39,141 nt of DNA from Hylemonella gracilis. GTDB lineage: Bacteria; Pseudomonadota; Gammaproteobacteria; Burkholderiales; Burkholderiaceae_C. The stretch lies in NCBI GenBank assembly GCA_945862005.1, contig CAMAWQ010000005.1, positions 1-39,141 of the forward strand. Direction: 5' to 3'. This document shows positions 2,087-13,616 of this stretch, in pieces. The position numbers and the translations under genes were made by a program. The stretch's first letter is position 1; each line of letters opens with the position of its first letter. Below the pieces are notes generated by a model. That model saw only the letters and a list, made by a program, of their open reading frames with translations. It searched no databases and had not been told where the DNA came from.

Positions 2087-3544
2087 ATGAACGACGTTGC
2101 ATTTGGCCAGCAGGCGATCAAACAAAACAATTTTCTTGAAGCTGAACGTCGCTTCCGACAGGCGCTTGTGCAGCAGCCGCATTCGACTGAAATCAAGCGC
2201 GACTTAGGTTATGCCTTGTTTCAGTTAAACCAATTAAACGAATCGCTGACTCTGCTCGATGAGGTGGTGCGTCGCGCGCCCTCCGATTTGCTTGCTAGGC
2301 TTTTGTTTGGTCGGCTGTGTTTGCGTTTGCAGGAGCCACAAGAAGCAGAAAAACACTTCAAACGCATTCTGAAAAAACTGCCCACTAGTGAATCGGCGTT
2401 ATCGGGGCTGGTCGATGTAGCGATTGCCCTTAACCAGATGGACCAGGCCCAAATCCTTACAAAAAAAATTTTAGCCATCAACCCACGTTCAGAAGTTGGG
2501 CATTTGTCGGCGGCCAACTTGGCCGAGATGCAAACCGACTTTGAAGTCGCACATCAGCACTACAACAGGCTTATTCAGCTTGCGCCAAACAATGCGCAGC
2601 ATCGTTACCACCGATCGCGAAGCCTGCTGCGGCGAGGTGAGTTGTCTGAGGGCTGGAAAGAGTTTGAGTACCGGTTGGTCTCAGGGGCTGTCCAGCTGCC
2701 GCCAATGCAAACACCACGATGGACCGGTTCCCAAGTGGATCATTTGCTGTTAATTGCGGAGCAGGGGCTTGGAGACGTTCTTCAGTTCTCGCGCTTCATA
2801 TCTCAAGCCAAGCCGCTAACGCAACGCATCACGCTGGCGTGCCAGCCTACGATATCTGAGCTTCTAAAACGATCTTTCGAAGTGGAGACTGTTTCGCTCA
2901 ACCCCGCATCTTGGCCCCATCATGACGCACATTGCGCATTAATGAGCTTGCCAGCCGTTATGGGTCTTGGGGTGGCCTCTGTAAAACATGGGGGTCGTTA
3001 CTTAAAACTAGATAGCAACCGCCTCAATTTATGGGCTGGCCGACTCAATTTAGACCCACAAAAGTTAAATGTAGGGGTGGTGTACGCATCCTCTGTTGCG
3101 CATACAACAGAGCAATACCTGCACCGCAAACGATCCTGCTCAGTTGAAGACCTTAGTCCCTTGAACAATCTTCCGAATACGGTATTTTTCAATCTACAGC
3201 TTGGTTTTGTGGTGCAGCCAGATGAAGGCACTGCATTTGGAAAACTATTGCAATGGCGCGACTTTACAAGCGACATTAAAGACTTTGATGATACTTCCGC
3301 CATCATCGATCTTCTCGATGTGCTGCTCTGTGTGGACACAGCAGCCATACATGTGGCTGGAGCGCTGGAAAAGCCAGCTGCACTTTTGCTGCCCTACGCT
3401 GCCGATTGGCGCTGGATGCGGCAGTGTGAATCAACGGATTGGTACCAGAGTGTGAGATTGTTTCGGCAAATTTTGCCAGGTGAGTGGTCTGATCCGCTTC
3501 TAAAAGTTAAAGATTATCTCGAGGCCATTGCTTATGATTATTAA
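2087..3544 (+). CDS. TPR-repeat protein with C-terminal glycosyltransferase-like (heptosyltransferase/GT9-like) domain
   Basis: N-terminal TPR-like repeats (AIKQNNFLEAERRFRQALVQQPHSTEIKRDLGYALFQLNQLNESL...), then LIAEQGLGDVLQFSRF and LLDVLLCVDTAAIHVAGALEKPAALLLPYAADWRW, as in TPR-GT proteins. Confidence 0.8.
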   Translation: MNDVAFGQQAIKQNNFLEAERRFRQALVQQPHSTEIKRDLGYALFQLNQLNESLTLLDEVVRRAPSDLLARLLFGRLCLRLQEPQEAEKHFKRILKKLPTSESALSGLVDVAIALNQMDQAQILTKKILAINPRSEVGHLSAANLAEMQTDFEVAHQHYNRLIQLAPNNAQHRYHRSRSLLRRGELSEGWKEFEYRLVSGAVQLPPMQTPRWTGSQVDHLLLIAEQGLGDVLQFSRFISQAKPLTQRITLACQPTISELLKRSFEVETVSLNPASWPHHDAHCALMSLPAVMGLGVASVKHGGRYLKLDSNRLNLWAGRLNLDPQKLNVGVVYASSVAHTTEQYLHRKRSCSVEDLSPLNNLPNTVFFNLQLGFVVQPDEGTAFGKLLQWRDFTSDIKDFDDTSAIIDLLDVLLCVDTAAIHVAGALEKPAALLLPYAADWRWMRQCESTDWYQSVRLFRQILPGEWSDPLLKVKDYLEAIAYDY

Positions 3545-3811
3545 TATTGTCGTCAGTAATAACTAACAATTACCTTGTAACGAAAGCATTGAATTCAGTG
3601 CGCCGGCATCAGGTGTGAGTGTGTCAATAGAGTGAAGCTTCGTGTTATAGGTGAGCGCTGTGACATTAATATATTTTTTATTTCGCGAATAAATTTCCAA
3701 GTGTTAAAATACTTATTTATATATATGATGCATGAATGCTATCCACAATGTTTTAAATGACATTTAAAACACATTAATAATTAAGTTAGTGAGGTTGATA
3801 AGGATGCAATT

Positions 3812-5002
3812 ATGAAAATTGTTTTATTGAACTGGAGCAAGGGTGAAAACAACCCCTTTGCTTACTTCAATCAAGAACTAAGTAAAAAATTAATAAAATT
3901 TGGTGCTGACGTTAGTATTGTTGAGCTGGATAGTAGTCTTGTATTAAATTTATACGAGATATACAATAAGAAGAAAATAGATCTAGTAATTACTCACCAA
4001 GGGTTTGGTACTGATTATAAAATAAATCAAACGGACGAATTAATTTGGGATAGGTTGCAGTTAAAAATTATAAGTTTGGGCTCCGATCACCCGTGCCACA
4101 ATCCGAATTTAAACAACGCAGATTCTAAATATGTTGTGCATACTTATTGTATAAGTGCATATGCAGATTATGCAAATAAATACTTAAAAAAAATAAATAA
4201 ATCATGCTTTGTTGGGGCGCCTAATATATTTGATGTCCGGGACGTCGTGGATCTCCCCAAGGCAGGGGATTACTTTGTTTTCCCAAAAAATATTGAAGAT
4301 ATAGCCTCTACATTTAAAAGGTGGCGGGCCAGCTATAAACCTGAAATGTCCAGCTTGTTGGAATCAATTTCAGAAGATGTAATGTATGGGTATAAGTCAC
4401 GTATGCCATTTGATCATCATGACTTAATTGAATCCTCTTTGGGGGTGCGTACAAGTTATATATCAAGATTTGAAATTAATCCTGGAGTTTATGAGCGCAT
4501 TAAACATGCCATCCATTCTGAAGTTGATAAAATATATAGAAATTATGCTTCTGAACTTGTCATTTTAGAGATGAAGGACTTGCCATTGAAGATAAATGGT
4601 AGAGGATGGGAGCAATTTGGAAAAAATAAATCAAAATTTCATGAATTTAATGAATTTGGTGAGGTGAAACATGGCGAATATCAGTTTCAATCACTATATG
4701 GAATAATAGATGTTGTGCCGTTTTGTTTCGGTATGCATGATAGATCATCGCGTGCAATGGCATACAAATCCGGCTTTTTATGTAATGCCAATTTGGATTT
4801 TAAGGATTCTGATGGTGGAAAGTATGACGATATTTTCTTTACCGGAATAAATGGGAGTCTGCGATCGCTTGCAGACAGGGTTGTTTCTAATCCAAGAAGA
4901 CACATTATGCGTTGTAATGAAATTGGTGAAATTTGCAAAAAAATAGAGCCCTTTGATTATTTCTTTAATTTTTTAGTTAAGGAGGCGGGGTGTATTAATT
5001 AA
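3812..5002 (+). CDS. Probable glycosyltransferase-like protein (CgeB/GT-B-like fold suspected)
   Basis: 396 aa AT-rich ORF. N-terminal Rossmann-like MKIVLLNWSKGENNPFAYFNQELSKKLIKFGADVSIVEL; C-terminal DVVPFCFGMHDRSSRAMAYKSGFLCNANLDF resembles the C-terminal region of CgeB-type glycosyltransferases. Confidence 0.5.
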   Translation: MKIVLLNWSKGENNPFAYFNQELSKKLIKFGADVSIVELDSSLVLNLYEIYNKKKIDLVITHQGFGTDYKINQTDELIWDRLQLKIISLGSDHPCHNPNLNNADSKYVVHTYCISAYADYANKYLKKINKSCFVGAPNIFDVRDVVDLPKAGDYFVFPKNIEDIASTFKRWRASYKPEMSSLLESISEDVMYGYKSRMPFDHHDLIESSLGVRTSYISRFEINPGVYERIKHAIHSEVDKIYRNYASELVILEMKDLPLKINGRGWEQFGKNKSKFHEFNEFGEVKHGEYQFQSLYGIIDVVPFCFGMHDRSSRAMAYKSGFLCNANLDFKDSDGGKYDDIFFTGINGSLRSLADRVVSNPRRHIMRCNEIGEICKKIEPFDYFFNFLVKEAGCIN

Positions 5003-5322
5003 TTAGTCTGAAGATGCTTAATTTTTTAAATTATTGACATTTTTAATAGTCCAGAGTGAATCGATCTTTAGCAGTACACGCGATGTTTATGGCATTACAA
5101 ATTGCTGACTTTTCGGATGACTATAAAAAATATTTTTTCATGCTTTAGTCACTACTAGATCAGGTTAGCTTCAAAGCAATTCAGTTCGCGGTTGCGGCCA
5201 AGGGTTAAGAAAGCCATGCCTTAAATCAAGCTCCTATTGAGCAACCCCATCAAAGGACAATTATGATCTGTTACTAATTAACTTATTGATACAACATTGA
5301 CATCTATTTATTAGAAAAAATT

Positions 5323-6408
5323 ATGAACATAACTATTGCCATACCAACGTTTAATAGATGTGCCAATCTCGCAATTTTGATTGATTCTATTGAGAAAATA
5401 AATGTCCCTAAAGGGGTAAAATTATTTGTTGCCATATCTAACTCTGCTTCATTAGACAACACATCAATATATCTTGATATATTGAAACTTTCAAATCCTG
5501 AAAAGTACTTAATACATAACAAGATTAGTCGGCAGACAAACTGGTACACTCTAATGCAGATGGTGCCAAAAGAAACGGATTACGTTTGGCTTATTGGTGA
5601 TGATGATGTAATACTTAATCCAAATTGTCTTAAAGAAATTTTTTCTATAATCCAAGATTCAAAAGGGGAGTTAAAAGCATTATTTATGCCGATGAAGAAA
5701 AAAATTGGAGCGAAGGGTTTTGAATCGGGGTTGTTATATGATTTGTGCAATAAATATGGTTTTATTGAAGTTATGGGGTGGATGTCTTCCAATTTTATCG
5801 ACTATAAATTCTATCTCCAAATATATGAATTATTTGGAGAAAAATTGAATTATAGGGCGGCGAGATCAGAAATAGTATACAAAAATCGTATTGGATTGTA
5901 TTTACATGCGACTCAGACATACAAGGTTCTTTTCAGTCACAAGGTTGGGCTTTTGTTTACTGATTTTATTGACGAACAACCTTATGAGCGCAATTTAAAT
6001 ACAATTTTACAGTCGAACGGATATGCAAAGAAAAAGTACTATAGCGGTAGATTTTTTTATGATTTAGATGATATCAATCAAATTAACAAATTGAATAATT
6101 TTATGCCTGGAAGATTTTTTTATAGATATCATAATCGCGATCTTATTCTGATGCTTTATCAGATTGCATACGAGGGTTCAAAATCTAGGGAGTTTAGAAA
6201 AGAAGAGACAAATACGCAAATTAATATTCTTAGAGATGCCGTGGCTTATTCTAAATTATCTGATTATAAAGTGTTTTATCAAATAATTGATGCCTTGGTT
6301 GCAGACATTTTGTTGGGGTGCGAATTATCTAATGGCGAAGCTAAAAGTATCGGAGATTTTTTTAAGGTAAGGGAGTACTCAGATAAGGTTGACGAAATCA
6401 AAGTGTAA
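5323..6408 (+). CDS. Glycosyltransferase family 2 protein
   Basis: MNITIAIPTFNRCANLAILIDSIEKI...YVWLIGDDDVILNPNCLKEI, a canonical GT-A start with a DDD metal-binding motif. Confidence 0.85.
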   Translation: MNITIAIPTFNRCANLAILIDSIEKINVPKGVKLFVAISNSASLDNTSIYLDILKLSNPEKYLIHNKISRQTNWYTLMQMVPKETDYVWLIGDDDVILNPNCLKEIFSIIQDSKGELKALFMPMKKKIGAKGFESGLLYDLCNKYGFIEVMGWMSSNFIDYKFYLQIYELFGEKLNYRAARSEIVYKNRIGLYLHATQTYKVLFSHKVGLLFTDFIDEQPYERNLNTILQSNGYAKKKYYSGRFFYDLDDINQINKLNNFMPGRFFYRYHNRDLILMLYQIAYEGSKSREFRKEETNTQINILRDAVAYSKLSDYKVFYQIIDALVADILLGCELSNGEAKSIGDFFKVREYSDKVDEIKV

Positions 6409-6423
6409 ATTTTAAATTTGTAT

Positions 6424-6565
6424 CAAAACGTAATTAACAGTCTTAATGCTTCCATTATTGTTAGTTGCAAAAATGCATCCAGGTGAGATGGTGATTATCT
6501 TAAGCTATCACTTTATAGCCTAGGTCAACTAACTCAAAAAAGATCATTGATGTTTAATAGAAAGA
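6424..6565 (+). pseudogene. 5' remnant of a second GT2-like gene, cut off by the IS30 element
   Basis: Frame reading LYQNVINSLNASIIVSCKNASR*DGDYLKLSLYSLGQLTQKRSLMFNRK: GT2-like 'SIIVSCKN...YLKLSLYSL' with an internal stop, ending at the IS boundary. Confidence 0.5.
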
Positions 6566-7625
6566 GGCGGTTTCAAGCACGAAGTGCAACACGGGATAAC
6601 GATTGATGAAATACCTCTGCGGGCGTCTTGAATCCCAATCGTTTGCGGGGTCAGTTATTCAACCGGTTTTCAATCATTCTAATTTCCTCATCGGTGATGT
6701 TTGCCATCGCCCGCTTCTTGGGGACATATTGCCTCAGAAGTCCGTTGAAGTTCTCGTTAGAGCCGCGCTCCCAGCTTGTAAAGGGCCTGGCGAAGTACCC
6801 CGTGCTGCCCAACGCCTGGTCAATTTCGACATGTCCACAGAACTCTTGTTCGTTGTCGTAGGTCAGCCTTTTAACCCTTGCTTGGAAGGGCTTGAGCACC
6901 TTGATGATGGCCGCTCCCACCAAGTCGGACGTCTTATTTGAAACCTTCGCCATGACCGCATATCCGCTCTTGCGCTCAACCACCGTCATGATGGCCTGCT
7001 TGTGGTTCGCACCGATGACGGTGTCGCACTCCCAGTGACCGACATGCTTGCGATCCTCGATGTGCAATGGGCGCTCGTTCAGGGGCCTACGATTAGGGAT
7101 TTGCCCCCTGCGATCAAGTCCGCCGGCATAACGCTTTCTCTTCTGCTTCTGACAACGGAGGTTCTTCCACAGCTTACCGCCGCTGGCCTTGTCAGCGTAG
7201 ACATACTGGTAGATCGTCTCGTGGCTCACAGGCAGCTTGCCAGCGATCTGTTCAGGGCTCCACTGCAGTTGCAGCAGCGCAGTGGCTTGCGCCTTCACCC
7301 ACGGCGCCACCAGCGCGGCATTGCGACTGCCTTGGCACGTTGACGCGACAGCTCACAGGCCTGTTTAGGCCGGTAGCCACGGCTGCCCGCATTGCGACGC
7401 AACTCGCGACTGATCGTGGACTTGCTGCGGCTGGGCAAGTCTGCAATCTGAGTGATGGTGTGTCCGGCTTTCATAAGGCTGTGAATCTGATATCTTTCAA
7501 TTTGGCTGAGGTGTTTGTAGTTCAATTGGTAACTTCGACTTGCAGGTCTAGAAGCCTAGAATGCTAAACATCCTCAGCCTCCTTCCTTCGGTTAATCAAA
7601 GTTGCACTTCGTGCTTGAAACCGCC
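6566..7625 (-). mobile_element. IS30-family insertion sequence (1060 bp), transposase inactivated
   Basis: 25-bp perfect terminal inverted repeats GGCGGTTTCAAGCACGAAGTGCAAC (6566-6590) and its reverse complement (7601-7625) flank an IS30-type transposase. Confidence 0.93.
6573..7525 (-). pseudogene. IS30-family transposase, frameshifted and prematurely stopped
   Basis: N-terminal part 7525..7295 (MNYKHLSQIERYQIHSLMKAGHTITQIADLPSRSKSTISRELRRN) and C-terminal part 7310..6651 (APWVKAQATALLQLQWSPEQIAGKL...HWECDTVIG...LTYDNEQEF...SWERGSNENFNGLLRQYVPKK). Joining needs a 1-nt correction near 7330-7336 (..RAK[A]SRNAALVAPWVK..). A TGA at ~6651 interrupts NN*PRKRLGFKTPAEVFHQSLSRVALRA, which otherwise runs to 6573. 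Confidence 0.9.
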
Positions 7626-7629
7626 TTAA

Positions 7630-8103
7630 ATAAATACTGATGTTATTTTAATTAACAGTGTGCGAATTAAAGCTGCGGATGATGTCAATTCAAGATTGGA
7701 TAATTTAATGCGTTTACTTTTTGCTGTTTGCTGAAATAAAGAGTTCTCCAGATACTAATTAATATAATTTCATTAGCGGTATGAAGTTTTTGAGTTAATC
7801 AAAGTCGTACTTCGTGCTTGAAGCCGCCAATTTTAATAAAAAAAGTTGATGGAGATTTTCAATATTTTCAAGATGCGGGATTAATAATATATTTTTTAAT
7901 ATAAGTGCATTGCATGATAGAACTCATAGAGATATCTCACATAGAGGTGGTTTTTTTTGTAATTCATCAATTAACTTAAATGCAAAATATGAAAGCTTGT
8001 TTTTAGCTGGTTTCCCTTAAGATTTAAAGGAAAAAGCAGTTGATGTCATGAAAAATCCTGCTCTTCATCCGAGCAAAAGTCAAGATTTTGGAAATGATAT
8101 ATA
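7630..8103 (+). pseudogene. 3' remnants of a GT2-like glycosyltransferase gene (several frames, stops, IS-end scar inside)
   Basis: DVILINSVRIKAADDVNSRLDNLMRLLFAVC* (~7640-7735) resembles the GT2 'VILLNSDT..xxWLDRLxR' motif. After the IS-end scar, KKVDGDFQYFQDAGLIIYFLI / SALHDRTHRDISHRGGFFCNSSINLNAKYESLFLAGFP*DLKEKAVDVMKNPALHPSKSQDFGNDI* spans ~7835-8103. Confidence 0.45.
7794..7828 (+). repeat. Solo IS30 right-end copy (35 bp)
   Basis: GTTAATCAAAGTCGTACTTCGTGCTTGAAGCCGCC versus IS right end GTTAATCAAAGTTGCACTTCGTGCTTGAAACCGCC (3 differences), same orientation. Confidence 0.9.
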
Positions 8104-8618
8104 AAATAACAATCCATTTGAAAATTTCCATTTATTTTTAACACAATTAATAACTAATATCCGGTAAATTTTAATGCTAAATTCAGGAAGGCTCATCTTG
8201 CCATCGATGCATCGCGACACCTTAATTGTGAAGTGTGTTGGCGACCTCACGGGTGAGAGATATGTGTTGATTTTTTTCAATCCAACTAGTTATTAAGTGG
8301 GAATGGCCCTTGAGTCTGGGACAGGTCAATCTGGCTATCGCTGAGTATTGACCTCTTCAAATAGAAACTCTTCAATTGTAAAAAATCTACTTCTCACTCC
8401 TTTGGTTCTAGGGGACGATTACCTGGACTTGGAATCGGACTCTGATATCATTAGTTCAGAGTACTCAGTTCGGTAAGGACCAAGGCCGTGTGACTTTAAA
8501 CAACTCTAACCTCGTGAGCCTTAAACGTAATTGGGTACTAAACAGTCACAATAAACTATTTATCTAAGCCGACAATGAGAAACCTTTTTTCGCCGTATGT
8601 AGATAATCAAAGGACGCT

Positions 8619-9860
8619 ATGAATATTACGCAAGAAGTACTAAAGCAACTAAAAAAGATCCCTCACAAGCCAGGCCTAAGTTATTTACTGGAGGGCGAAG
8701 ACAGACTAATCGAGCACATTAAATCGATCGCTATCGTAGGAGCCTTTGCCGATAAACTAAATTTCAAATATGAAAATTATTTAAAGAAAAATAATAAAAA
8801 TTTCAAGTCCTTTAAAGAAATAGATGCCACCTTGAAAAAAGAGTGGCGGACTTTCGATTGCATTCTGATTGGATCCATAACTCGATATGCTCACTACAAA
8901 AAAGCACTTCTCGAAATTGGCGTACCAAGAACATTGATAGCTCAACCAGAAGAAATTTGTCAATTGTCTGCGAATTTTTACTCTCCAGATAATAGCTTGC
9001 CGTCATGGCCAAATAACGAGCAATCCTTTGAGGAGAAGATAAATTGGCTTACAGTCAATGAATCTATGCTTTCGCAGGCATATTATTTGATTGAGCCGTG
9101 CTCTCGCCAAATTTTTATTGATAAAATAACAACGTATCTTCGACCAAATTGTATTAATATCTTTAAAGATTTCATTAGAAACCATTCCTCCCCCTACAAG
9201 ACCCTCGGGTCAGTGCCCCTCAATGGAGATAGGCCATCATACGGTGTAGAGAATTTTTTTTACTTCTATAACGACGTTATCAATATTTACGATAATTGCG
9301 TTTATGTTGACATAGGAGCACACGTCGGCGATTCGCTAGATGCATTTTTAAAAAGATGCTCCGTGCTTGGATTGAACTATAAACATATATTTTGTTTTGA
9401 GCCCGACAAATTATCTTTTGACGAATTATTAAAAAATTCAAAAGGTCTTTCTAATATAACACTTTCTATGTCGGCCGTGCTAGAAGAAATAAGTATGACC
9501 GGATATAACCCCGTGGGAACTGGTGGAGGTAGCATCATACAGAACGCCACTGTTGAGATAGATCAATTAATCCAGGCAGGTCCGTTGTCTAAATCTATTG
9601 CTGATAGTCGAGTTGATCTTATCAAATGGGATACACCTGGACCTGGCATAGCAATGAAAGTATTCGCGGGCTGCGAGTCCACGATCGCTAGCCATAATCC
9701 AGATCTAATAATCGGCGCCTATCATAATGTTAATGATATTTTTCAAATACCTATAAGATTGAAGGAAATTTCCAATGACTATAAAATATACTTAAGACAT
9801 AACTCTTGGTTGTATACAGAGACGTGTTATTATTGTATATTTGGCGGTACAAATAAATAA
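8619..9860 (+). CDS. FkbM-family methyltransferase-like protein
   Basis: 413 aa; NCVYVDIGAHVGDSLDAFLK, HIFCFEPDKLSFDEL, then DLIKWDTPGPGIAMKVFAGCESTIASHNPDLIIGAYHNVNDIFQIPIRLKEI..YKIYLRHNSWLYTETCYYCIFG: FkbM topology with a divergent motif after DLIK. Confidence 0.8.
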   Translation: MNITQEVLKQLKKIPHKPGLSYLLEGEDRLIEHIKSIAIVGAFADKLNFKYENYLKKNNKNFKSFKEIDATLKKEWRTFDCILIGSITRYAHYKKALLEIGVPRTLIAQPEEICQLSANFYSPDNSLPSWPNNEQSFEEKINWLTVNESMLSQAYYLIEPCSRQIFIDKITTYLRPNCINIFKDFIRNHSSPYKTLGSVPLNGDRPSYGVENFFYFYNDVINIYDNCVYVDIGAHVGDSLDAFLKRCSVLGLNYKHIFCFEPDKLSFDELLKNSKGLSNITLSMSAVLEEISMTGYNPVGTGGGSIIQNATVEIDQLIQAGPLSKSIADSRVDLIKWDTPGPGIAMKVFAGCESTIASHNPDLIIGAYHNVNDIFQIPIRLKEISNDYKIYLRHNSWLYTETCYYCIFGGTNK

Positions 9861-10178
9861 TTATATTCAACTTAAGTATGCTCTACATACTGAACCACCT
9901 CGAAAAACCAAAGTATGTTAGCCCCCTGATAAACAGTCTCTTCGGTATTGCGTAGACTAAGAAACATAGGCAGGACTTTTGACATGACCGTTTCTTCAGC
10001 AACGATCAGTCGGTTGGTGGTGGTGAAAAACCGTTCAGCCCTGTAGGCGGTTGACTAGGGGGTGAGCTTAATTTTGTGTAATCGGTCTAATGGCGGGTTA
10101 TCATCGAATATGCCAGAGTGGATATGTCGCAAATACAAAGAAAGCAATACTCAAAGGCATAATTCGTAAGCTCCTCCA

Positions 10179-10460
10179 TTAGGTAGACAATTCAAAACTA
10201 GTGATTCCTGTTTTAAACGTCATCGGCATGAACTCCATGGGGGTACTATCGCCGAGCGAGTCATGGGGTCTGAACTCGTTGTAATCCATCACCCAAATCT
10301 CCGCAGCCTCTTGAGCCTAAGCAATTGAGTTGAATAAATTAGCATCGAGCACTTCATACCTAAAGATTCTGTTGAACAGCTCAACAAATGCTTTTTGATT
10401 GGGTTTGCCAAGCTGAATGTACGGCAGCGCAATCCCCTTTTCCATACCCTCTCACAGCTC
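10179..10460 (-). pseudogene. IS3-family OrfB transposase C-terminal remnant
   Basis: Minus-strand GIALPYIQLGKPNQKAFVELFNRIFRYEVLDANLFNSIA*AQEAAEIWVMDYNEFRPHDSLGDSTPMEFMPMTFKTGITSFELST*: IS3 OrfB C-terminus with an internal stop and no upstream catalytic core. Confidence 0.85.
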
Positions 10461-10516
10461 GTCCCTAGGCGATACTGGCGATCGCGCAATTCACTTCTTT
10501 AATCTGGCGAAGTCCA

Positions 10517-10643: not shown

Positions 10644-12788
10644 TTATATAGACAATGGATCAACATCCACCGCCCAGCGGATCACGCCTTTGTGTGCCGG
10701 GTCTTTTTTAAGGGCGTGCAGCAGGTTGTGCCATTGGGCCAAATGGTGTTGCAGTGCGTTGCGCGAGGTGCTTTCAAGCAGCATTTGCGCACGCTCCACA
10801 TTGGCCACGCGCTGAATGGTTAGGGGCACTGCGGCAAAGCAGCTGACGTGTTCTGCCGCGGGCAGCTGGGTGGCCGCAAGCCGTGCTGCATTTAAAAAGC
10901 CTTGGGCCACCTCCTGGGTTCGGGCGTCTGCACGCAGCAGCGCTTGGTAGCTGAACGGGGGCAGGGTGGACTGCTCGCGCTCGCTGAGCTGCTGGCGCGC
11001 AAATTCGGGGTAGTTGTGCGCTTTGAGGGCCGCATACAAGGGGTGTTGGGGGTGGTGGGTTTGCACCCACATTTCACTTTGGGCGCTCAGGTCTGGGCTG
11101 CGGCCCGCACGGCCAGCGGCTTGCAGCAGCAAACTAAATAGCCTTTCCGGCGCACGAAAGTCGCTGGAAAACAAGGCGCCATCAGGGTTAAGCGCCGCCA
11201 CCAGCGTGATGCCACGAAAGTCGTGGCCCTTGGCAATCATTTGGGTGCCCACCAGCACGTCCACATCGCCCTCATGGACTGAAGCCAATTGCGATTCCAG
11301 CGTGCCTTTTTTCTGGGTGGTGTCGGCGTCGATGCGCGCCACGCGCACCGGCGAGCCATCGGGCCGTGCCACAGCGTGCAGCAGTTCGCTCAAGTGCTCT
11401 TCGAGTTGTTCAGTACCGCGCCCGAGCGGCCGGATGTCGGGGTTACCGCAGGCGGGGCAGTGCCGCGGCACCCGCTCGGTGTAGCCGCAGTGGTGGCAGC
11501 GCAGGGTGCGGTCTGTTTTGTGGAACACGCGGTAGGCGCTGCAGTGGGCGCATTCGCTTTTCCAGTCGCAATCGCTGCATTGCAATACGGGGGCGTAGCC
11601 GCGGCGGTTGAGCAAAATCATGCACTGCTCACCCCGAACCACCCGGTCTTGAATGGCCTGCAGTAAAGGTGGCGAAAACACCGCGCCTTTGGGCTGGTGG
11701 TTCATGTCCACCCGTCGCACCAGCGGAAAGCTGCTGTGCCCGCCGACCCTATCGGGCATTTCAAGCCGCAAGTAGCGGCCCCCTTCAGCTGCTGGGCGGC
11801 TGTGGTGCCAACTTTCTAAAGAGGGCGTGGCCGAACCCAAAATAACTGGTGCGTTTTCAAGCCGCCCCCGAAAAACCGCCAAGTCACGCGCCGAGTAGCG
11901 GGCCCCCTCTTGCTGTTTGTAGCTGTGGTCGTGTTCTTCATCCACCACAATCAATTTCAGGTGCGGCATGGACGCAAAGATGGCCATACGGGTGCCCAGC
12001 ACAATGCGCGCCTGGCCTTGGTGGGCAGCCAGCCAGCTTTTAAGGCGTTGCGGTCCGGTCATGCCGCTGTGCATGGAGACCAAGGTGTCGGGCAGAAAGC
12101 TGCTGCCCAAAAGTTGTGCAAACCGGTGCGCAAACCGCGCCTCTAGTTGAGGCGTCAGGTTGATTTCTGGCACCATCACCAAAGCCTGCGCTTTGGGGTC
12201 GGCTTCGAGAACTTTTTGAACGGCTCTTAAATAGACCTCGGTCTTGCCGCTGCCCGTGGCGCCAAACAGCAAAAACGGGCCTGGGTGCTGGGCGTCGCTG
12301 TGCATACGGCGCAACACGTCTGCTTGCGCTGGGGTGAGCTCTGGCAATGCCCAAGGGCTTGGGTTTGATTCAGTCACCTGCGCGTCTTGCGATGCTGAAG
12401 CCGCTGCTGGCTTTCGCCGCAAGCGCCGCTGCATCTGGGTGGCATCCAAGCCTTTGAGTTGCGGCGGTAGGGCGGACAGTGCCACTTCACCCAAGCTGCG
12501 CTGGTAATAAGTCGCGCTAAAGCCCACCAATTGCCGCCATGCCTCGGATAGGGGATGCACACCCTCAAGCACCGAGGTGATGGGCTTAACCCCCCAAGTG
12601 GTGGATGGAGGCTGGGGGGGGGCCGCACCAAGTTGGGGTGCCCACACCAACCCCAATGTGTCGCGTTGCCCCAAAGGCACGCGCACCAAAGTTCCTGAAG
12701 CAAGTGGCAGCTCACTTTGGTAAGTGAGTGGCCCCGCCAGCTGGCTGTGCGCGGGCGTCTGCACCAACACGGAAATCTGCACGGTCAT
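10644..12788 (-). CDS. priA: Primosomal protein N' (replication restart helicase PriA)
   Basis: 714 aa; LLFGATGSGKTEVYLRAV, IVVDEEHDHSYKQQEGARYSARDLAVFRG, C-rich zinc-binding region CSDCDWKSECAHCSAYRVFHKTDRTLRCHHCGYTERVPRHCPACG, C-terminal VDVDPLSI. Confidence 0.97.
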   Translation of the reverse strand: MTVQISVLVQTPAHSQLAGPLTYQSELPLASGTLVRVPLGQRDTLGLVWAPQLGAAPPQPPSTTWGVKPITSVLEGVHPLSEAWRQLVGFSATYYQRSLGEVALSALPPQLKGLDATQMQRRLRRKPAAASASQDAQVTESNPSPWALPELTPAQADVLRRMHSDAQHPGPFLLFGATGSGKTEVYLRAVQKVLEADPKAQALVMVPEINLTPQLEARFAHRFAQLLGSSFLPDTLVSMHSGMTGPQRLKSWLAAHQGQARIVLGTRMAIFASMPHLKLIVVDEEHDHSYKQQEGARYSARDLAVFRGRLENAPVILGSATPSLESWHHSRPAAEGGRYLRLEMPDRVGGHSSFPLVRRVDMNHQPKGAVFSPPLLQAIQDRVVRGEQCMILLNRRGYAPVLQCSDCDWKSECAHCSAYRVFHKTDRTLRCHHCGYTERVPRHCPACGNPDIRPLGRGTEQLEEHLSELLHAVARPDGSPVRVARIDADTTQKKGTLESQLASVHEGDVDVLVGTQMIAKGHDFRGITLVAALNPDGALFSSDFRAPERLFSLLLQAAGRAGRSPDLSAQSEMWVQTHHPQHPLYAALKAHNYPEFARQQLSEREQSTLPPFSYQALLRADARTQEVAQGFLNAARLAATQLPAAEHVSCFAAVPLTIQRVANVERAQMLLESTSRNALQHHLAQWHNLLHALKKDPAHKGVIRWAVDVDPLSI

Positions 12789-12815
12789 GGGTTGGGTGGG
12801 TTGGGTGGGTTGGGT
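12789..12815 (+). repeat. Three perfect tandem copies of GGGTTGGGT; G-quadruplex-capable tract
   Basis: GGGTTGGGTGGGTTGGGTGGGTTGGGT: six GGG runs separated by TT/T loops, directly abutting the priA start codon (12786-12788). Confidence 0.9.
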
Positions 12816-12892
12816 GTGTTTGTTCGTGTGAACTGCCGAAATCGCACCTAAGTGACTGATTTCATTGATAATTTAAGGCTATACAGAAATTC

Positions 12893-12901
12893 TGTGGATA
12901 A
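12893..12901 (-). promoter_or_regulatory. Candidate DnaA box (TTATCCACA)
   Basis: TGTGGATAA on + strand, exact match to the TTATNCACA consensus on the minus strand; intergenic. Confidence 0.5.
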
Positions 12902-13046
12902 CTTTGTTGACAACCTACATTGGGAGGCCTTAAAGCCTTGAAAATCAAGGGCTTCTCCAGCTTGCACAGAATTCATGCAGATCTCAAAACTTAATGAAAT
13001 CAACAAGTTAGGAGCACCCGCCATTCTGACGCCAAATTGACGAGCG

Positions 13047-13070
13047 GGGCTATAGCCCATAAAGCTTTAT
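13047..13070. repeat. Two abutting perfect 12-bp palindromes
   Basis: GGGCTATAGCCC (13047-13058) followed immediately by ATAAAGCTTTAT (13059-13070). Confidence 0.85.
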
Positions 13071-13079
13071 CACAGTTTT

Positions 13080-13088
13080 TGTGCATAA
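13080..13088 (-). promoter_or_regulatory. Candidate DnaA box (TTATGCACA)
   Basis: TGTGCATAA on + strand, matching TTATNCACA on the minus strand. Confidence 0.45.
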
Positions 13089-13148
13089 CAGTAAATCAAC
13101 GCAATTTTTTTGATCAGCCGCAAATTAGTGAAACCCCTCATTGGCGCC

Positions 13149-13616
13149 TTAATGAGGATCGGGCAAACCCATCAGCCGCGCGTACTCCACCATCAGGCAT
13201 TGGTTTTGCACGACCTTTAAGCCGCCTGCACGTGCAAGCGTGGCGGCGGCGGGGTGTTCAATACCCCTTTGCATCCAAAGGGCCTGGGCCTGAATGGCCA
13301 AGGCATCGGCCACGATGGCGGGTATTTCAGAGGCTTGGCGAAAACAATTCACCAATTCAATGCGGGCATGCTGAGCGGCTAGCAACAAGTTGGCGAATAC
13401 CGGTTCGCCCAAAATGGGCTCGGTGACCATGGGGTTGACCGGCACAATCCGCCAGCCTTGGCTTTGCATGTAACGGGCCACGCGAAAGCTGTCGCGCTCA
13501 GGTTTGGGCGATAGACCTACCACCGCTACGGTGCGGCAATGGCGCAGGATGTGCTCTGCATCCGATAGGTAGGCAGCGGTTGCAGTGCCACTGATATTGC
13601 TGGTGATGGGATTCAT
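13149..13616 (-). CDS. CoA-binding domain protein (YccU-like)
   Basis: 155 aa; TVAVVGLSPKPERDSFRVARYMQSQGWRIVPVNP..EPILGEPVFANL...NCFRQASEIPAIVADALAIQAQALWMQRGIEHPAAATLARAGGLKVVQNQCLMVEY. Confidence 0.92.
   Translation of the reverse strand: MNPITSNISGTATAAYLSDAEHILRHCRTVAVVGLSPKPERDSFRVARYMQSQGWRIVPVNPMVTEPILGEPVFANLLLAAQHARIELVNCFRQASEIPAIVADALAIQAQALWMQRGIEHPAAATLARAGGLKVVQNQCLMVEYARLMGLPDPH

Follow-up and report, generated by a model that had tools for sequence, protein, structure and literature searches.

The window, i.e. the complete stretch of 39,141 nucleotides that was analyzed, is contig C5 of an assembly of 1.7 Mb (72% complete), whose closest relatives with a name are Hylemonella MAGs (Comamonadaceae). 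It contains a noncoding gap of 360 bp (12789-13148), which is flanked by a gene encoding a CoA_binding_2 domain protein on one side and by priA on the other side, both on the minus strand. The two genes and the features of the gap are the following:

10644..12788, minus strand: priA, the downstream gene, with PriA_3primeBD, DEAD and PriA_C domains
12849..12861, minus strand: second IHF-like site AATCAGTCACTTA (alignment consensus AtCAA..ACTTA), present in many relatives
12879..12887, plus strand: degenerate inverted DnaA box C CTATACAGA, 14 bp after box B, position of DARS box I, 2 mismatches
12893..12901, minus strand: DnaA box B TTATCCACA, position of DARS box II, 0 mismatches
12905..12913, minus strand: weak DnaA box B' TTGTCAACA, 12 bp upstream of box B, position of DARS box III, 2 mismatches
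12936..12950, minus strand: inverted repeat CCTTGATTTTCAAGG in the interval between the IHF site and box B, kept across the Comamonadaceae according to the alignment
12964..12978, minus strand: Fis-like site GCATGAATTCTGTGC (consensus GNNYRNNWNNYRNNC), 77 bp before box B, predicted to bind Fis
12998..13010, plus strand: IHF site AATCAACAAGTTA between both DnaA boxes, exact match to WATCARNNNNTTR
13080..13088, minus strand: DnaA box A (the far box) TTATGCACA, exact match, conserved
13149..13616, minus strand: gene for a CoA_binding_2 domain protein (domain match), the upstream neighbor

Downstream of priA, positions 3001-10500 form a low-GC island (mostly 33-40% versus about 55%), which contains glycosyltransferase- and methyltransferase-like ORFs as well as an apparent IS30-type transposase gene at 6651-7310, and which was probably acquired.

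Motifs in the priA-upstream region

An earlier note on this DNA had listed several motifs upstream of priA, and all of them are present: two exact DnaA boxes on the minus strand (TTATCCACA at 12893-12901 and TTATGCACA at 13080-13088), two abutting palindromes (GGGCTATAGCCC at 13047-13058 and ATAAAGCTTTAT at 13059-13070), a mini-hairpin (CACAGTTTTTGTG, 13071-13083), the motif GTTGACAAC (12906-12914), which overlaps the conserved weak DnaA box TTGTCAACA (12905-12913), and a G4-type tract at the priA start, which is GGGT/CCCA-rich. Not in that list were the Fis-like site, the IHF site, and two weak boxes, which are at -12 and +14 relative to box B. Apart from these two boxes, the 39 kb contain no exact match to TTATNCACA. 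Shuffling yielded 1.29 TTATNCACA matches per window or about 0.012 per 360 bp; a chance value of about 0.01 per 360 bp had been estimated before. In the whole assembly TTATNCACA has 28 matches, compared to 19 for the reversed control, and thus is little enriched. From the window alone the pair of boxes, which had been called notable, is therefore no more than suggestive; it is significant because it is conserved in relatives, not because of counts within one window.

The alignment of related regions revealed conserved islands, namely, box A, the IHF consensus, the inverted repeat, T.TCAACAAAGTTATCCACAGAA, and the second IHF-like site, while the palindromes, the G4 tract and the rest of the region are variable. 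Of the motifs proposed for a conservation check, the DnaA boxes are kept in relatives and the palindromes are not kept in the nearest ones. The G4 tract is also not conserved in the nearest relatives, and therefore palindromes and G4 tract were both rejected as functional parts. The mini-hairpin was considered and rejected as well. An Rfam search of the region gave no match, and an RNA element was thus rejected. A consensus search of the same region retrieved neither a sigma-70-like promoter nor a terminator.

Conservation and spacing of the boxes

The two nearest relatives, in which PriA is 90-92% identical, and genomes across the Comamonadaceae have TTATGCACA and TTATCCACA upstream of priA with equal spacing. 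Across the Burkholderiales the pair is present directly upstream of priA about 187 bp apart, the interval contains an exact IHF consensus at a constant position, and in most relatives priA starts about 96 bp past box B. Of 301 genomes in the GTDB family, 141 contain the pattern TTATGCACA-N170-200-TTATCCACA and none contains the reversed control. All 30 loci that were fetched by this pattern lead into priA. Thirty genomes failing the pattern mostly have TTATCCCCA as box A in an unchanged geometry, and the element was also found in other families of the Burkholderiales. The full grammar of box A, IHF site and box B was present in 92 of 121 distinct priA-upstream regions, compared to 0 of 2,420 shuffles. 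The genomes counted in these comparisons are related by descent, and the counts therefore do not represent independent events. Among these 92 full elements, the distance between the IHF site and box B is 109-111 bp in 89, box B is TTATCCACA in 83, and box A is TTATGCACA in 62 and TTATCCCCA in 23; in most Burkholderiales elements box A is situated at -76 to -81 relative to IHF. With few exceptions box A is TTATGCACA or TTATCCCCA, and it is very rarely TTATCCACA, the sequence of nearly every box B. This difference suggests selection for different DnaA affinities. As judged from these comparisons, the box set is an ancient and precisely spaced arrangement of predicted DnaA and IHF sites, which has been kept in most of the beta-proteobacteria examined. 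An ihfB-like gene was found in the assembly and in all 25 relatives searched.

Several variants were observed. In three genomes, Polaromonas and a relative (L048, L049, L068), the element has been lost and a TetR-like gene is now upstream of priA; no box pair with the spacing of the element was found anywhere else in these three genomes. Tandem double copies upstream of priA, about 310-470 bp apart, occur in G309, G134, G235, L158, and others, and G069 has a triple copy. Many Comamonadaceae elements (L018-L030 and others) contain an inverted repeat, GCTAYNAAANCNATAGC, between box A and the IHF site, which is absent from the window.

The start-to-start distances of 150 box pairs fall into three clusters, i.e. 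179-180 bp (7 pairs), 185-190 bp (123 pairs), and 197-199 bp (20 pairs), with none between the clusters. Searches of 161 genomes beyond those distances retrieved just three more pairs, at 165, 177, and 211 bp. The cluster centers near 179, 187, and 198 bp are about one helical turn apart, and spacing steps of about one turn of DNA point to looping, as would be expected if DnaA molecules on the two boxes had to face each other across an IHF bend. The suggestion of the earlier note that a DnaA titration or reactivation site might be located upstream of priA gains strong support from the conservation of the boxes and of the IHF site and from the helical phasing of the boxes, which make the region a good candidate for such a site. 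Purely passive titration of DnaA would agree with the presence of two consensus boxes, and datA of E. coli itself also titrates DnaA (PMC5835720). However, titration needs neither a fixed helical phase nor an IHF site, and both are conserved, so that we regard a passive site as very improbable.

The surroundings of box B are similarly constrained. A weak box on the same strand is present at exactly -12, with a mean mismatch of 1.97 in 105 Burkholderiales elements and of 1.59 in 37 elements from gamma-proteobacteria. An inverted box is present at exactly +14, with mean mismatches of 3.55 and 2.08, respectively, and with two mismatches in the window. Most other offsets from box B have about six mismatches (range usually 5-7), and +12 is not favored. 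The lowest mismatch to the Fis consensus is at -77/-78 from box B in both groups; a strict consensus is present at +31 to +34 from the IHF site in 20 of the 37 gamma elements, a strict match was found in only 8 of the 105 Burkholderiales elements, and the window contains a relaxed match.

A search of the whole class with only box B and the IHF site matched 116 of 274 genomes, and the reversed control none. When box A was subsequently looked for blindly, allowing at most one mismatch, 29 of 33 distinct gamma-proteobacterial sites with an IHF-to-B distance of 107-112 bp carried it, at -76 to -81 or at -67 to -70, compared to 0 of 6 sites with another spacing. A phylum-wide search yielded matches in further families, again with a control of zero. 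Some gamma-proteobacterial genomes contain several copies, up to five (five in G595, four in G432). The element adjoins priA in several families, and at other sites its neighbors are uvrB, groES, aroE/dctM, or a phosphorylase gene. Two of these sites, between aroE and dctM and between an oxidoreductase-like ORF and the phosphorylase gene, are between convergent genes. The elements adjacent to uvrB have a DARS-type core with IHF at 111-112; those of L278, L279, and L281 are without box A, while L283 and L284 have a box A with one mismatch. An uptake-sequence-like motif indicates that L283 probably belongs to the Pasteurellaceae. Among the exact boxes inspected in the assembly itself, IHF site and weak box are combined only at the priA site and at a second site between an xseA-like and an exbB-like gene (G000:C24:17101-17217; about 2602-2718 of L239). 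The latter has an IHF-to-B distance of 108 bp and a weak box at -12, and is without a good box A. A site with a similar, xseA-like neighbor was seen in G177 (L240).

These copies bear on the possibility, also raised in the earlier note, that the region is a DnaA-controlled promoter of priA. In this case DnaA and IHF would regulate the gene, and the region would have no role in the DnaA cycle. In the Burkholderiales the element almost invariably precedes priA directly, as it does at all 30 loci fetched with the pair pattern, and it also adjoins priA in several families of gamma-proteobacteria; both observations agree with this explanation. However, the up to five copies per genome beside other genes, some of them between convergent genes, argue that the element is not merely a priA promoter, and the occurrence of tandem double copies and the lack of a sigma-70-like promoter in the region also speak against it. 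The purely promoter-based reading is therefore weakened, and we consider it improbable.

Comparison with DARS1, DARS2, datA, and oriC of E. coli

A core of three boxes with shared spacing, in which box I is opposite to boxes II and III, is the common feature of DARS1 and DARS2 (PMC5742627). In both E. coli sites the measured offsets are 14 and 12 bp. The core of the element has the same offsets and the same orientations, and at the respective positions of the window CTATACAGA (two mismatches), TTATCCACA (none), and TTGTCAACA (two mismatches) are found, with box I being weak. The IHF site is about +120 from the position of box I, compared to +109 for IBS2 of DARS2, about one helical turn less. 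The element resembles DARS2 in that IHF is positioned about 109-120 bp away from box I, and its Fis-like site would be a further similarity. It differs from DARS2 in several respects: DARS2 has two IHF sites, whereas the element has one main site and a second one (IBS1) was not seen; box V of DARS2 points in the opposite direction, whereas the far box A has the same direction as boxes II and III; and the Fis-like site is between the core and IHF, whereas FBS2-3 of DARS2 are on the other side of IHF. Unlike DARS1 and DARS2, it is located at priA and has a weak box I. For E. coli DARS1 no IHF match was found with up to one mismatch. The DARS1 locus of E. coli is uvrB, and the same core is present at uvrB in other gamma-proteobacteria. 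A site between rppH and mutH (L277) was considered as a DARS2 orthologue and rejected, because the match uses a box other than the DARS2 core.

The element also has similarities to datA, in which a single IHF site is combined with two strong boxes and a weak one; the essential boxes all have the same direction and their spacing is important (PMC5742627). In the same scan E. coli datA appears as box(+), IHF(-), box(+), and its inverted box is at +12. Two strong boxes of the same direction flanking one IHF site are also found in the element. Relative to IHF, the boxes of datA are at -77 (weak), -65, and +97, and those of the element at -78, +98 (weak), and +110. Hence order and direction of box, IHF, and box are shared, as are a weak tandem box at 12 bp and the IHF register, which agrees to within 1 bp on either side, while the strong boxes of the element are one 12-bp step further away from IHF. 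The box-IHF-box intervals are 65/97 in datA and 78/109 here, and 66-69 and 96-98 occur in minority forms. The conserved weak box 12 bp from a strong box is beside box B and not beside box A, whereas the low-affinity box 7 of datA adjoins box 2; the inverted box is at +14, compared to +12 in datA (box 3 to box 4). The genomic positions also differ, with datA at glyV-queG and the element at priA and multicopy in some gamma-proteobacteria. The distance between priA and dnaA amounts to 1-10% of the chromosome in seven of nine closed Burkholderiales genomes, and thus priA is origin-proximal like datA (10% from oriC), rather than like DARS1 or DARS2.

A plain datA orthologue was the first thought, before the +14/-12 spacing of the core and the members at the DARS1 locus shifted the balance to DARS. 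At a site of the datA type IHF would loop the strong boxes A and B, and ATP-DnaA would hydrolyze its ATP after initiation, so that DnaA is switched off. Box order and orientation as in datA, the close IHF register, the origin-proximal position of priA in seven of the nine genomes, and the box set described for datA, with one IHF site and with all essential boxes in one direction (PMC5742627), would fit such a function. The position of the inverted box at +14 as in DARS, the weak box beside B rather than beside the far box, and the presence of the same core at the DARS1 locus in other gamma-proteobacteria do not fit, and a requirement of datA for Fis is not described in the reviews consulted. 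Taken together, we rate a function of the datA type as possible but rather unlikely, though ahead of a mere priA promoter.

With oriC the element shares DnaA boxes around an IHF site, and DnaA boxes with an IHF site in a noncoding region could in principle belong to a replication origin. However, oriC differs in that the element has no skew switch and is far from dnaA. No GC-skew switch was found in the window, dnaA is on another contig in the conventional rpmH-dnaA-dnaN setting, and in closed relatives the distance between dnaA and priA ranges from 52 kb to 1.1 Mb. An origin at this locus is therefore extremely unlikely.

A putative DnaA control site at priA

In our view the region upstream of priA belongs to the DARS/datA class of chromosomal DnaA control sites, with a probability of about three in four. 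The class assignment is firmer than the direction of the DnaA reaction. The element joins a DARS core to a far arm that resembles datA. We lean to DARS because the spacing of the core is the defining feature and is exact, and this preference is tempered because box I is weak in the Burkholderiales; that the site is of the DARS type is thus about an even bet.

From the cluster around box B the element extends via the Fis-like dyad to the IHF site about 109 bp further, and to box A another 78 bp out. IHF is predicted to bend the DNA and thereby to bring DnaA bound to box A to DnaA on the B cluster. The looped complex would then alter the nucleotide state of DnaA; most likely, ADP would be released from core-bound DnaA, allowing ATP to rebind before the next initiation. 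The transcription of priA might respond to DnaA, either incidentally or as a second function of the site, and such a response is probable because the site is only about 96 bp from the priA start.

The known part of this picture is that the DARS/datA switches of E. coli set when DnaA is active, while a variant of the class, apparently leaning to DARS, at priA would be new. datA has been described in E. coli, and DARS2 in relatives in which the core keeps its genomic position (PMC4245941, PMC8682772). The open-access papers searched contained no report of a DnaA site next to priA, and an earlier mention of datA-like sites elsewhere is possible. More speculatively, one ancestral family of DnaA-IHF elements might exist in beta- and gamma-proteobacteria, often in several copies, from which datA, DARS1, and DARS2 of E. 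coli would descend. Its members would tend to adjoin repair genes (priA, uvrB, xseA) and might tie the nucleotide cycle of DnaA to repair gene expression. The control of the ATP/ADP state of DnaA is largely open beyond E. coli and its close relatives. Genomes can be searched with the grammar, and the loci that it retrieves, next to priA in most Burkholderiales and in multiple copies in many gamma-proteobacteria, are concrete targets for the study of this control. The grammar also suggests that the sites of E. coli have diverged within a single family.
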